A stretch of DNA of 37,607 bases, from the IMG/VR virus record IMGVR_UViG_3300035688_000028, positions 1 through 37,607 of that record; one strand, 5' to 3'. This stretch comes from a virus. A program made the position numbers and the translations under genes. The notes beneath the pieces are model-generated. The model was not told the DNA's origin and made no database searches. It was given only the letters and a program-made list of their open reading frames with translations. Numbering within the stretch: position 1 is the stretch's first letter; every line of letters begins with the position of its first letter. Of this stretch, positions 1-37,607 are shown in pieces.

Positions 1-112
1 GAGGAGATGCTTCAATTCGAGGCTGAGAAGGCCAAGATACCCGTCGCTAAATTTTGGTGCGAGTATGTCCAGAATGGTGAAGGCGAAGCCCACTACAATC
101 CCGAAAAAGGCG
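1..112. repeat. Terminal direct repeat (circular-genome overlap, left copy)
   Basis: Bases 1-112 match 37496-37607 except at positions 108 (A versus G) and 111 (C versus T). Such an overlap is what an assembler leaves on a circular or circularly permuted phage genome. Both differences are at third codon positions of the RecT-like gene and are synonymous (AAA/AAG Lys, GGC/GGT Gly), so they look like natural strain variation. The right copy is 37496-37607. Confidence 0.93.
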
Positions 113-708
113 ATATTGCAGTCAAGGCAATTCTACATGACGAAATCTCACGGACTAAGTGGGAGAAGCGTATCCTAAGCCACTTCATTGAGCTCATCAA
201 AAGCCAGGTTGAAAAGGATGAAGCCTGGAAGTTGGCTAATGAATTGGGCGGACCAGAACCCACCTGGTCAGCGGTAGCGGTCGTGCATGGTTCTGAGAAT
301 TTCGGCGCAACCGAGAAGTATGATCGTTATGAGCGTTGCTGCAAGAGGGCTGAAAAGTTAGCCATACGCAAGCGTTTTCCGCTCATCGATCTGCCTGAGC
401 CGGTCGGTTTTGACGAAAATTATATCGATGCTGAGGTAAAAGATGTTCCAGAACAATTGCCACCCGAGCAGCCACAGATTGAGCAACCGCAACCCGCGGG
501 CAATGGCAACGGCAAGGCGCCGATGAATTTGGAAGAGGCGAAGGCTATCACCAATCGCGATGGAACGAAATATGGCAACATCGGCCCCGAAGATTTAAAG
601 CATATGGCGCGGTCATTGAGCAACGTGGCAAACCGCACAATTGAGCAAGAGGATAAACTGCTAGCAATACAGTTAATCCAGGCTGACAGGTCGAAGGAGA
701 CGAAATGA
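1..708 (+). CDS. RecT-like single-strand annealing protein, C-terminal part (continues from 37253)
   Basis: When the ends are joined, codon 82 of the gene starting at 37253 falls on base 1, giving one 316-aa protein. The N-terminal part carries the core that marks RecT/Bet-type phage annealing proteins (see the 37253 entry). This part continues the core and ends in a Pro/Gln/Glu-rich linker around total residues 232-250 and a short helical tail. Family members anneal complementary single strands in phage recombination and replication. The next gene starts at 705 in an ATGA overlap, so the two are translationally coupled in the early operon. No partner exonuclease (RecE/YqaJ type) is recognisable nearby. 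The family is inferred from motifs only. Confidence 0.65.
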   Translation, partial: EEMLQFEAEKAKIPVAKFWCEYVQNGEGEAHYNPEKGDIAVKAILHDEISRTKWEKRILSHFIELIKSQVEKDEAWKLANELGGPEPTWSAVAVVHGSENFGATEKYDRYERCCKRAEKLAIRKRFPLIDLPEPVGFDENYIDAEVKDVPEQLPPEQPQIEQPQPAGNGNGKAPMNLEEAKAITNRDGTKYGNIGPEDLKHMARSLSNVANRTIEQEDKLLAIQLIQADRSKETK

Positions 709-20850: not shown

Positions 20851-20876
20851 TGTAATGATGTTATAACATCATTACA
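20851..20876. promoter_or_regulatory. Perfect 26-bp palindrome (operator candidate)
   Basis: The half-site TGTAATGATGTTA is followed directly by its exact reverse complement TAACATCATTACA. Its edge is only 3 bases from the extended -10 motif, covering the place of a -35 box. It is most likely the binding site of a dimeric activator or repressor of the capsid-leader promoter. It could also form a cruciform or RNA hairpin. Confidence 0.7.
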
Positions 20877-35422: not shown

Positions 35423-35435
35423 GGTTCTGATTTAT

Positions 35436-35570
35436 ATTGGGCGGGAGAGGATATGAACCTCTCTTGGAGTGTGGTTCCTTTCAGATCAGTATGAACATTT
35501 ACGGGTGATTAATATATTAATCAACCCAACCACAACCGTGCCTTCCGTGGCCAACATACTGCCGCCCAAT
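35436..35570 (-). ncRNA. Structured tRNA-like element with crossing inverted repeats (135 nt), possible attP
   Basis: The ends are 9-bp inverted repeats, ATTGGGCGG (35436-35444) and CCGCCCAAT (35562-35570). Next to the left end is a T-arm-like hairpin, which on the minus strand is GAGAGG-TTCATAT-CCTCTC (35463-35445), stacked directly on the end stem as in a tRNA. Inside, TGTGGTT (35470-35476) pairs with AACCACA (35528-35534), and CAGTATG (35487-35493) pairs with CATACTG (35555-35561). These two pairings cross, giving a pseudoknot. A perfect 18-bp palindrome lies at 35506-35523, flanked by GGG and CCC. It begins 14 bp after the integrase stop. A tRNA-3'-end-like block beside int is also typical of attP. 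Confidence 0.55.
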
Positions 35571-35579
35571 CTAAAAAAA

Positions 35580-35858
35580 CTATCGTGTTATCATTGATTG
35601 TTCTGATACGACCTGTTCCATTCGGGCTTCACCAGGTACTTGAATTAGCTCTTGTGGTAGTGGCCGAGTTGGTTGTAGTCCGAGCTTGCCCACATTTACA
35701 GAATGCTCCAAGTAATAATCTTCCGTTCTATCTGGATCGATTAAGTAATGCAGCAATTCTGTCGCCAAAGCATCGGGGCTTTGAAATATCAGGGTTTGAC
35801 ATCCTACCTTGACGATAAAACCATTCAAAACTGCGGTAATTTCAATATTTCTAATCAT
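35580..35858 (-). CDS. Hypothetical small phage protein, 92 aa
   Basis: The start at 35858 follows GAAGGAG. The N-terminus MIRNIEITAVLNGFIVKVGCQTLIFQSPDALATELLHYLIDP is a beta-beta-alpha unit (strand IEITAVLNGFIVKVGCQTLIF, then a helix) found in many small phage proteins. The C-terminal half is Pro/Glu-rich. No function is known to me. It lies alone on the minus strand between the integrase region and the tRNA-His unit; a run of seven T follows its stop codon on the coding strand. Confidence 0.65.
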   Translation of the reverse strand: MIRNIEITAVLNGFIVKVGCQTLIFQSPDALATELLHYLIDPDRTEDYYLEHSVNVGKLGLQPTRPLPQELIQVPGEARMEQVVSEQSMITR

Positions 35859-35930
35859 TATTTTTCTCCTTCTCAATATTATTGTCCGTCATAGAGTGGC
35901 TAAAGTAGACTTAAGACTGTGGATACAAGA

Positions 35931-35941
35931 TGTGGTAAACT
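35931..35941 (+). promoter_or_regulatory. Extended -10 promoter of the tRNA-His / antisense-RNA unit
   Basis: TGTGGTAAACT is the recurrent phage motif with -10 box TAAACT (35936-35941). The transcript would start near 35948, six bases before the tRNA, and run to the terminator at 36292-36323. Confidence 0.65.
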
Positions 35942-35953
35942 GCTATTAATCTT

Positions 35954-36027
35954 GGTGGTTGTAGCTCAACTGGTAGAGCAATGGTCTGTGGCACCATTGG
36001 TTGCGGGTTCGAGCCCCGTCAGCCACC
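35954..36027 (+). tRNA. tRNA-His (anticodon GUG)
   Basis: Full cloverleaf: acceptor GTGGTTG/CAGCCAC, U8-A9, D arm GCTC-AACTGGTA-GAGC, anticodon arm ATGGT-CTGTGGC-ACCAT with anticodon GTG, and T arm GCGGG-TTCGAGC-CCCGT. It has the tRNA-His identity pair: an extra G at -1 (35954) opposite C73 (36027). CA follows C73, so CCA is at least partly encoded. A phage-borne tRNA beside the integrase could also mark the host integration target. Confidence 0.93.
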
Positions 36028-36057
36028 CAGGGAATGTGAGATTATTAAGGTGCAAAA

Positions 36058-36186
36058 ATGAACGATAAAAGCTTTGATGAATTGCAGTACAACTTGTTGA
36101 AAAGCCTCGATACTAATATACGATTCATGCTTGTGCTGATGATAGTAATAATAATATTGCAAGGTGTAACGATTTTTATTAGGTAA
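36058..36186 (+). CDS. Small membrane peptide, 42 aa
   Basis: AAGGTG lies six bases before the ATG. Residues 1-20 are polar (MNDKSFDELQYNLLKSLDTN) and 22-41 form one membrane helix (FMLVLMIVIIILQGVTIFI). It is the only protein of the tRNA-His transcription unit. No family is recognised. Expressed from a unit likely active in the lysogen, it could act in superinfection exclusion; this is inference. Confidence 0.6.
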   Translation: MNDKSFDELQYNLLKSLDTNIRFMLVLMIVIIILQGVTIFIR

Positions 36187-36324
36187 TTGGGGGATTGATT
36201 AATCAAATAAGCCACCCCAGACCTCCTTAGGTCTGTCGCTGGTCCTCACTCCTCTCAGACTTGCCGGTCGAAGGAATGGGGGAAGGAGAACGGTCTGGGC
36301 ATTAGCCCAGGCCGGTTCTTTTTA
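36187..36324 (+). ncRNA. Putative antisense immunity RNA (3' part of the tRNA-His transcript)
   Basis: This 138-nt segment has no gene but contains a perfect 12-bp palindrome (TTGATTAATCAA, 36196-36207), a CAGACC/GGTCTG hairpin, and the terminator. ACTCCTCT (36248-36255) and GACTTGCCGGTCGA (36258-36271) are exact complements of AGAGGAGT (36687-36694) and TCGACCGGCAAGTC (36669-36682) in the early-operon leader. The first covers the ribosome site. Both partners can form small hairpins with complementary six-base loops (TTGCCG and CGGCAA), fitting a kissing interaction. Confidence 0.65.
36292..36324 (+). terminator. Intrinsic terminator of the tRNA-His unit
   Basis: GGTCTGGGC (36292-36300), loop ATTA, GCCCAGGCC (36305-36313) form a 9-bp stem with one G-T pair, followed by GGTTCTTTTT. 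The T-run reaches the stop codon of the convergent repressor gene (36322-36324). Confidence 0.8.
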
Positions 36325-36543
36325 AGTCCCGGAATGCTCATTTTTCCTGTATTCAATTATATCATCAAGGCTATTCACCCCGAGGATATTACATAATTGA
36401 AGTGCGGTTTTGAGATTGAAATCCCAATAACCACGGGCGGCACGGTAGGCTGAGCTCATCGCCATTCCCTGACGTATTAAATCTATTGGTCTCAAACCGC
36501 GTTCTTTGAGCAGTTCAGGAACTTTGCTGACGAACGTTCCCAT
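36322..36543 (-). CDS. HTH (XRE/Cro-C1-like) repressor, 73 aa
   Basis: The start at 36543 follows GGAGG; an in-frame TTG at 36603 is part of a -35 box and cannot be the start. The whole protein is one helix-turn-helix domain (VPELLKERGLRPIDLIRQGMAMSSAYRAARGYWDFNLKTALQLCNILGVNSLDDIIEYR), as in small Cro/C1-type regulators, with no C-terminal oligomerisation or self-cleavage domain. It diverges from the early operon and has its own promoter, so it is probably the lysogeny repressor. Its 3' end converges on the antisense-RNA unit, sharing the terminator region. Confidence 0.8.
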   Translation of the reverse strand: MGTFVSKVPELLKERGLRPIDLIRQGMAMSSAYRAARGYWDFNLKTALQLCNILGVNSLDDIIEYRKNEHSGT

Positions 36544-36574
36544 CTGTGCCTCCAGTTCTAATTCCATACCTATA

Positions 36575-36603
36575 CTTATACCCTTAATATTCCAAACTGT
36601 CAA
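36575..36603 (-). promoter_or_regulatory. Promoter of the repressor gene
   Basis: A perfect -35 box TTGACA (36603-36598), a 17-base spacer, and -10 box TATAAG (36580-36575) on the minus strand. Transcription would start near 36568, leaving a leader of about 25 bases with GGAGG before the ATG at 36543. Confidence 0.7.
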
Positions 36604-36625
36604 TAGTAAATAACAATATTGGGGC

Positions 36626-36653
36626 TTGACAAATTTGCCAAATATGGTAAACT
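36626..36653 (+). promoter_or_regulatory. Early operon promoter with overlapping operator
   Basis: TTGACA (36626-36631), a 16-base spacer, and extended -10 TATGGTAAACT (-10 box TAAACT at 36648-36653). An imperfect inverted repeat, TTTGCCA (36634-36640) and TGGTAAA (36645-36651), fills the spacer and covers part of the -10 box, the expected place for the repressor. Start of transcription is near 36660. Confidence 0.7.
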
Positions 36654-36668
36654 GTAGGCAATAAGTAA

Positions 36669-36694
36669 TCGACCGGCAAGTCGAACAGAGGAGT
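36669..36694 (+). promoter_or_regulatory. Antisense target in the early-operon leader
   Basis: TCGACCGGCAAGTC (36669-36682) and AGAGGAGT (36687-36694, which includes the Shine-Dalgarno site) are exact complements of the RNA at 36248-36271. TCGAC-CGGCAA-GTCGA (36669-36684) is also a local stem-loop. Pairing would block translation of the operon that starts at ATG 36701. Confidence 0.65.
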
Positions 36695-36700
36695 CAATCC

Positions 36701-36988
36701 ATGACAACCTACAAAACCCATTGGAATAGCACCTATCTCGAACCTATCATCATCTGCCAGGAGGCCTGGCACGAGAAGGTGCTGGTAATCGCCAAGCAGC
36801 TCGTCCTGATAATGGGCCTGGATAACTACGATCGCTGGTGCACCGAGAACAAGGAATTCCCCGATGGGCCAGTAGATTGGCAAAAGCTCCACGCCATTCT
36901 CGAAGAGAAGTACAACCAAGAATTAGCCTGCAGACAGTTGGAGGAGCAGGATCATCGGGAGCAAATGAGAGAGGAAAGACCAGCATGA
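36701..36988 (+). CDS. First gene of the early operon, hypothetical, 95 aa
   Basis: AGAGGAG lies seven bases upstream. The protein is helical and acidic, with aromatic residues (MTTYKTHWNSTYLEPIIICQEAWHEKVLVIAKQLVLIMGLDNYDRWCTENKEFPDGPVDWQKLHAILEEKYNQE) and a charged C-terminal coil. I do not recognise a family. As first gene of a repressed operon containing the RecT-like gene, it may act early in replication or against the host. Its ribosome site is the presumed target of the antisense RNA. Confidence 0.7.
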   Translation: MTTYKTHWNSTYLEPIIICQEAWHEKVLVIAKQLVLIMGLDNYDRWCTENKEFPDGPVDWQKLHAILEEKYNQELACRQLEEQDHREQMREERPA

Positions 36989-37169: not shown

Positions 37170-37256
37170 ATGACCGCCTGGGCAATCGCAATCCTAATTG
37201 TTTCAATTATCGCCGTCTATTTTGACGGAGTTTGGAAAGAGAGGAAAACGGAATGA
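37170..37256 (+). CDS. Very small membrane peptide, 28 aa
   Basis: The ATG at 37170 starts two bases after the previous stop and its own stop overlaps the RecT-like start (ATGA). Residues 3-18 (AWAIAILIVSIIAVYF) form one membrane-spanning helix, followed by a basic tail DGVWKERKTE. The overlaps on both sides argue it is translated. It may be a host-membrane effector or only a coupling peptide. Confidence 0.55.
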   Translation: MTAWAIAILIVSIIAVYFDGVWKERKTE

Positions 37257-37607
37257 ACGCAAAAACTGAAATTGTAACCAAACAAAAAGCAGTGACATTC
37301 ATCGTTCAGGATCCTGCTCGTTTAGCATCAAGACTCAAAAACCTGATCGTCAATGGCAAGAAACTATCTGATGAGGAATGCCTGGCGTTGGCACAATACA
37401 GCGTCGCCACGGACCTCAACCCATTCGTCGGTGAGTGCTATTTTCTGCCCAGTATTGGTCCTGGTCCAGGCATTGCTGGCTGGCGCAAGAAAGCCGAGGA
37501 GATGCTTCAATTCGAGGCTGAGAAGGCCAAGATACCCGTCGCTAAATTTTGGTGCGAGTATGTCCAGAATGGTGAAGGCGAAGCCCACTACAATCCCGAA
37601 AAGGGTG
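37253..37607 (+). CDS. RecT-like single-strand annealing protein, N-terminal part (continues at base 1)
   Basis: The ATG at 37253 overlaps the preceding stop. The key block is residues 41-80: LSDEECLALAQYSVATDLNPFVGECYFLP, then GPGIAGWRKKAEE. This matches the core of RecT/Bet-type annealing proteins (L---A-YS-A--LNPF-GE-YFLP---G-GI-G-RK-A). The frame reaches the end of the window and continues without interruption at base 1 when the overlap is closed, giving 316 aa. It anneals single strands in phage recombination; no partner exonuclease is seen. Confidence 0.7.
   Translation, partial: MNAKTEIVTKQKAVTFIVQDPARLASRLKNLIVNGKKLSDEECLALAQYSVATDLNPFVGECYFLPSIGPGPGIAGWRKKAEEMLQFEAEKAKIPVAKFWCEYVQNGEGEAHYNPEKG
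37496..37607. repeat. Terminal direct repeat (circular-genome overlap, right copy)
   Basis: This is identical to bases 1-112 except at 37603 (G versus A) and 37606 (T versus C). Removing one copy gives a closed circle of 37,495 bp in which all genes are intact. Confidence 0.93.

Follow-up and report, generated by a model that had tools for sequence, protein, structure and literature searches.

Few phage immunity RNAs have been described so far, and mostly from enterobacterial systems: C4 of phages P1 and P7, the CI RNA of P4, and sar of P22. Transcription of sar runs antisense to the region that sar targets. C4 is about 77 nt long; RNase P releases it from a longer precursor (GGW site), and it silences the antirepressor gene ant. 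One element of C4 occludes the ribosome-binding site, and specificity comes from the other, which binds upstream (PMC5320573). In P4, the transcript under control is also the source of the CI RNA, which is released from it by processing and causes premature termination (PMC4825925). According to a review, there may be further C4-like RNAs (PMC12197685).

The DNA analyzed here (the window) is an IMG/VR virus record of 37.6 kb from a metagenome and belongs to a temperate phage. Its bases make it rather probable that the immunity region of this phage encodes a trans-acting, C4-like, two-block antisense RNA, which would block translation of the early operon.

Features of the Immunity Region

The features of the locus are listed in Table 1. 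The ends of the record repeat each other (positions 37496-37607 match 1-112 at 98% over about 112 nt), which makes a circular or circularly permuted genome probable. The gene for the RecT-family annealing protein spans this join; read across the end repeat, its product was recognized by phrog_252 and by PF03837 (24.9 bits versus a cut-off of 24.0). The first early gene belongs to no Pfam or PHROG family, and its stop codon is overlapped by the ATG of the second gene.

Table 1. Positions and supporting evidence of features in the tRNA-His to early operon region of the window.
Feature	Position	Strand	Evidence
Putative tRNA-His/small RNA promoter, extended -10 word ATGTGGTAAACTG	35930..35942	+	Likeness to early promoter word
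tRNA-His (GTG)	35955..36028	+	ARAGORN; Rfam tRNA, 64.6 bits
42-aa ORF	36058..36186	+	ORF list; AAGGTG upstream of ATG
Candidate antisense RNA, structured, terminator-ended	36187..36324	+	Fold stability, terminator
Predicted intrinsic terminator stem-loop, 10 pairs then GTTCTTTTT	36291..36314	+	Terminator scan
73-aa Cro/C1-like HTH protein (predicted)	36322..36543 (ORF readable from 36603)	-	HTH_26, phrog_3, AlphaFold2, Foldseek
Early promoter, TTGACA-16-TAAACT with TG extension	36626..36653	+	Promoter scan
Target in early leader, hairpin UCGAC-CGGCAA-GUCGA then SD block AGAGGAGU	36669..36694	+	Sequence, fold
First early gene, 95 aa	36701..36988	+	Sequence, ORF
RecT-family annealing protein, early operon	37253..37607, continuing at 1-708	+	PF03837, phrog_252

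The 73-aa protein encoded between the candidate RNA and its target is presumed to be a repressor. Its similarity to HTH_26 was weak and below the cut-off (E 0.008), and phrog_3, a transcriptional repressor family, was matched with an E-value of 0.0085. AlphaFold2 predicted five helices from the single sequence (pLDDT 78). The top Foldseek matches of this model were HTH controllers (C.BclI and HipB; probability about 1.0, best E 0.028), while no useful sequence match was obtained in PDB. The Cro/C1-like predicted fold agrees with the small HTH repressor that the earlier, sequence-only reading of this DNA had placed between the two sites.

The putative tRNA-His promoter word shares 12 of its 13 bases with the early promoter word at 36642-36654, and the word ATRTGGTAAACTG occurs in the window only at these two promoters. 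The putative tRNA-His promoter has a weak -35 element (TTAAGA) and a weak match to the consensus, and it was absent from the promoter scan list. The product of the ORF between tRNA-His and the candidate RNA is probably a hydrophobic single-span membrane peptide. No Pfam or PHROG match was found for this peptide, which could be of a superinfection-exclusion or toxin-like kind.

A separate structured element of 161 nt (35425-35585) is located directly downstream of the integrase gene. It has a branched fold on both strands (z -4.3 on the plus strand and -3.0 on the minus strand), which is closed by ATTGGGCGG/CCGCCCAAT. A perfect 18-bp palindrome (35506-35523) lies inside it, and its minus strand carries the tRNA T-arm-like GAGAGGTTCATATCCTCTC. 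This element is a candidate attP or tRNA-like element.

Complementarity Between the Candidate RNA and the Early Leader

Two blocks of the candidate RNA are exact complements of the early leader. On the RNA strand these are, from 5' to 3', ACTCCTCT (36248-36255, 8 nt) and GACTTGCCGGTCGA (36258-36271, 14 nt), with CA between them; on the leader strand, they are TCGACCGGCAAGTC (36669-36682) and AGAGGAGT (36687-36694), which are separated by GAAC and precede the ATG at 36701. The 8-nt block pairs with 36687-36694 and the 14-nt block with 36669-36682, in colinear antiparallel order, across an internal gap of 2 nt in the RNA versus 4 nt in the leader. All 22 block positions are intact, and the differences are confined to this gap. 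The leader block AGAGGAGT includes the SD of the gene starting at 36701. The blocks with their partners, order and unequal gap, as well as the coverage of the SD by the 8-base block, had been described in the sequence-only reading, and each of these points was recovered from the bases. Both segments are encoded on the plus strand, which corroborates, at the sequence level, the proposed arrangement in trans.

To score the complementarity, exact inverted blocks (minimum length, 6 nt) lying no more than 1 kb apart were chained, with internal loops of up to 5 nt allowed. The two-block chain scores 22 pairs, and the next best place within 1 kb in the whole window scores 14. None of 100 dinucleotide shuffles of the whole window reached 22 (largest, 19), and none of 5000 local shuffles reached 18 (largest, 15). 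The 14-nt block by itself is unremarkable: several further 14-nt inverted matches occur in the window, two of them self-palindromes, and a score of at least 14 within 1 kb was reached in 4 of 20 shuffles. The scan of inverted repeats throughout the genome also revealed a perfect 26-nt palindrome at 20851-20876.

Predicted Folds and Hybridization

The segment 36187-36327 has a predicted minimum free energy of -58.3 kcal/mol and is more stable than its shuffled versions (z -3.56; 0/200 shuffles), with the terminator contributing a part of this stability. The terminator predicted after the antisense stretch, at 36291-36314, is the only terminator-like site on the plus strand between 35400 and 37300. 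The antisense stretch is contained in one long predicted hairpin with an open apical loop, UGCC (36262-36265; p about 1.0). In the leader, a hairpin with a 5-bp stem is predicted, and its loop CGGCAA (36674-36679) is likewise open (p about 1.0). By itself, the leader is of ordinary stability (z -0.59). The two loops are complementary to each other. Contact between complementary loops is the step with which other antisense systems begin. Hairpins with complementary six-base loops had been proposed for both RNAs; the hairpins and their complementarity stand, and so does the loop size in the leader, whereas in the candidate RNA six bases (UUGCCG) are reached only with the closing U-G pair open, the loop in the minimum-energy fold having 4 nt. 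Elsewhere in the same RNA, 36217-36235 carries ACCTCCTTA, the same sequence as in the anti-SD end of 16S rRNA, within the hairpin AGACCT-CCTT-AGGTCT. The candidate RNA matched no Rfam family.

The predicted hybrid with the early leader has an energy of -41.5 kcal/mol, or -20.3 kcal/mol net of the costs of unfolding both partners. By this net value, the early leader ranks first among 56 translation starts of the phage, the runner-up being at -11.4 kcal/mol. The comparison with shuffled sequences, which the sequence-only reading had named as a check, was strongly positive: -20.3 kcal/mol was reached by 0 of 400 shuffled leaders and by 0 of 400 shuffled RNAs (means about -5, SD about 2). The runner-up is the next gene of the early operon (36986), which would be contacted through the overlapping RNA stretch 36238-36257. 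Since 9-10% of the shuffles equal this second site, we count it as a hint only. Opening of the antisense stretch, which is mostly paired within its own hairpin, costs about 12 kcal/mol.

Proposed Mechanism and Alternative Explanations

In the proposed mechanism, a plus-strand transcript would start at 35948, before tRNA-His, cross the 42-aa ORF, and stop at the terminator (36291-36320). Its 3' part, possibly released by processing (about 36187-36324), would fold into hairpins, one of them presenting the loop UGCC/UUGCCG. First contact would be made between this loop and the leader loop CGGCAA. Pairing would then spread across the 14-nt block and on to the 8-nt block, which, as judged from complementarity and accessibility, would mask the SD of the first early gene and block its translation. 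The rest of the operon, including RecT, would be silenced via the close or overlapping gene junctions, possibly with Rho polarity. The HTH protein would repress the early promoter, and the RNA would mop up leaky early mRNA or that of an incoming, superinfecting phage.

This antisense-RNA reading is based on the exact colinear match of 8 and 14 nt, which as a pair is far outside chance, and on the early leader being the best of all starts after accessibility costs. It is also favored by the open complementary loops in both RNAs, by the stability of the terminator-ended RNA segment, and by the presence of an HTH protein between the sites and of RecT in the target operon. The geometry of the blocks, one upstream and one on the ribosome-binding site, is as described for phage C4 RNA, and the second-best start belongs to the same operon, although many shuffles equal it. 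Against this reading speak the weak promoter match, the pairing of the antisense stretch within its own hairpin, and the operator-like character of the target block.

Since TCGAC-N6-GTCGA in the leader block forms a perfect dyad, a pair of DNA operators is the main rival explanation. The HTH protein or another regulator would bind this dyad, downstream of the early start, together with the copy at 36256-36271, with looping across the repressor's own gene as a possibility; the RNA complementarity would be a by-product of two inverted sites. The early copy adjoins the early promoter, the repressor gene lies between the two copies, and long inverted repeats, some near a start codon, are present in other fetched phage records. 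The second copy, however, has two dyad mismatches, as many as are tolerated at 17 places that match in the window, and at 15 other places there the dyad is at least as good. The conservation is asymmetric and takes in the 6-nt spacer, and the 8-nt SD block is left unexplained. Moreover, a separate perfect dyad, ATTTGCCAAAT (36633-36643), lies in the spacer of the early promoter and is a better operator candidate. On balance, we regard the operator pair as unlikely. It is distinctly improbable that the match is due to a recent neutral inverted duplication or to chance, that is, a functionless copy of the leader in the 3' UTR of the tRNA transcript. Such an origin would suit the 14-nt inverted match, which alone is expected at this sequence length, but not the combination of two fully intact blocks with changes restricted to the gap, a score beyond that of any shuffled window, and a copy which is located in a structured, terminator-ended RNA and covers an SD.

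Another role of the RNA would be that of a 3' UTR mainly controlling the 42-aa peptide, whose ORF is directly upstream, or of a perfect-overlap partner for the 3' end of the convergent repressor mRNA. The repressor gene (stop codon, 36322) does converge on the RNA. Between 36322 and 36045, the scan listed nothing terminator-like on the minus strand, and the repressor mRNA may therefore extend into sequence complementary to the antisense RNA. Run-through mRNA of this kind may act as a sponge for the antisense RNA or be cleaved with it. To either role as the main one we give very little credence: the two-block match to the early leader, the top-ranked start, is left unexplained, and the peptide's own start ranks only tenth of 56, near the shuffle level.

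Search for Related Phages

Relatives were sought in viral contigs with the repressor, the first early gene, the integrase, the terminase, RecT (in two parts), and a 98-aa ORF as queries. In addition, the integrase was searched against genome contigs, DNA and proteins against phage genomes, and DNA against 50 records of terminase relatives. In the collections searched, neither the repressor nor the first early gene nor the integrase-to-immunity region had a relative. Relatives of the terminase do exist (34-85% identity), but none of them has the integrase-to-early region in common with the window. An exact 16-mer scan with the target dyad returned 34 viral stretches, which were rejected as relatives; their surroundings look like chance and are mostly coding, and the two-block partner occurs in none.

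In a similar chain scan of the other fetched records, no chain of 22 pairs overlapped an SD-like site before a start codon (largest chain, 20). Some of these records contain long inverted repeats (up to 26 nt), which probably act at the DNA level; inverted complementarity is thus not in itself proof of RNA function. Two phages with related terminases illustrate this. One has a 26-nt inverted repeat with copies 420 bases apart (L098:1561-2006), and the other a 23-nt repeat near an SD and ATG (L060:1553-1657); both are probably DNA operators or recombination sites.

Comparison with Known Systems

Similar to the antisense RNA proposed here, P22 sar is a small RNA whose base pairing keeps translation of a phage gene from starting, and it operates alongside repressor proteins (PMC12197685). 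The segment and target in the window are both on the plus strand, about 400 bases apart, rather than on opposite strands as with sar. The CI RNA of P4, with seqA and seqC, is likewise a phage antisense RNA which pairs with a leader of the same strand and silences an early/replication operon. The candidate RNA differs in being a separate terminated unit with a predicted block at the SD; the terminator and the early promoter both lie between it and the target, which would place the two on separate transcripts.

The STnc6030 RNA of prophage BTP1 is a further parallel, since it is an antisense RNA with which a prophage excludes superinfecting phage (PMC7067206). It is, however, about 786 nt long and cis-antisense to the tailspike and injection gene, which are late genes, and is not a structured small RNA that masks an SD. 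How an induced prophage escapes its own RNA was left unexplained by the authors of that study (PMC7067206), and the same question would apply here.

The closest parallel is C4 of P1/P7 (RF01695), with which the candidate would share two-block pairing, occlusion of the ribosome-binding site, action in trans, and a part in phage immunity (PMC5320573, PMC12197685). The RF01695 covariance model, which covers sequence and a three-stem structure, gave no match at the gathering score over the window and none at E up to 10 in 36180-36330; a direct search for the family, also up to E 10, gave none either. The candidate, as read here, would work like C4 but falls outside the C4 family. It has a predicted terminator of its own behind tRNA-His and would be directed at the first gene of a RecT-containing operon. 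Its two blocks have the placement of the C4 elements, one over the ribosome-binding site and one upstream, but within one predicted hairpin instead of the two loops of C4. It is possible, though we propose this tentatively, that it represents a new family of phage immunity RNAs unrelated to C4 and CI RNA: the 3' part of a tRNA-His transcript, which would make loop-loop contact, then mask the SD of the first gene and so silence the early operon with RecT, perhaps reaching the second-gene start too (through 36238-36257), in a two-layer switch with a minimal repressor. A terminator-bearing, trans-acting two-block RNA in a phage unrelated to the described systems would suggest a repeated origin of RNA-based immunity, and swapping of its loops would be a simple way to learn whether pairing of bases is enough to determine the specificity of immunity.
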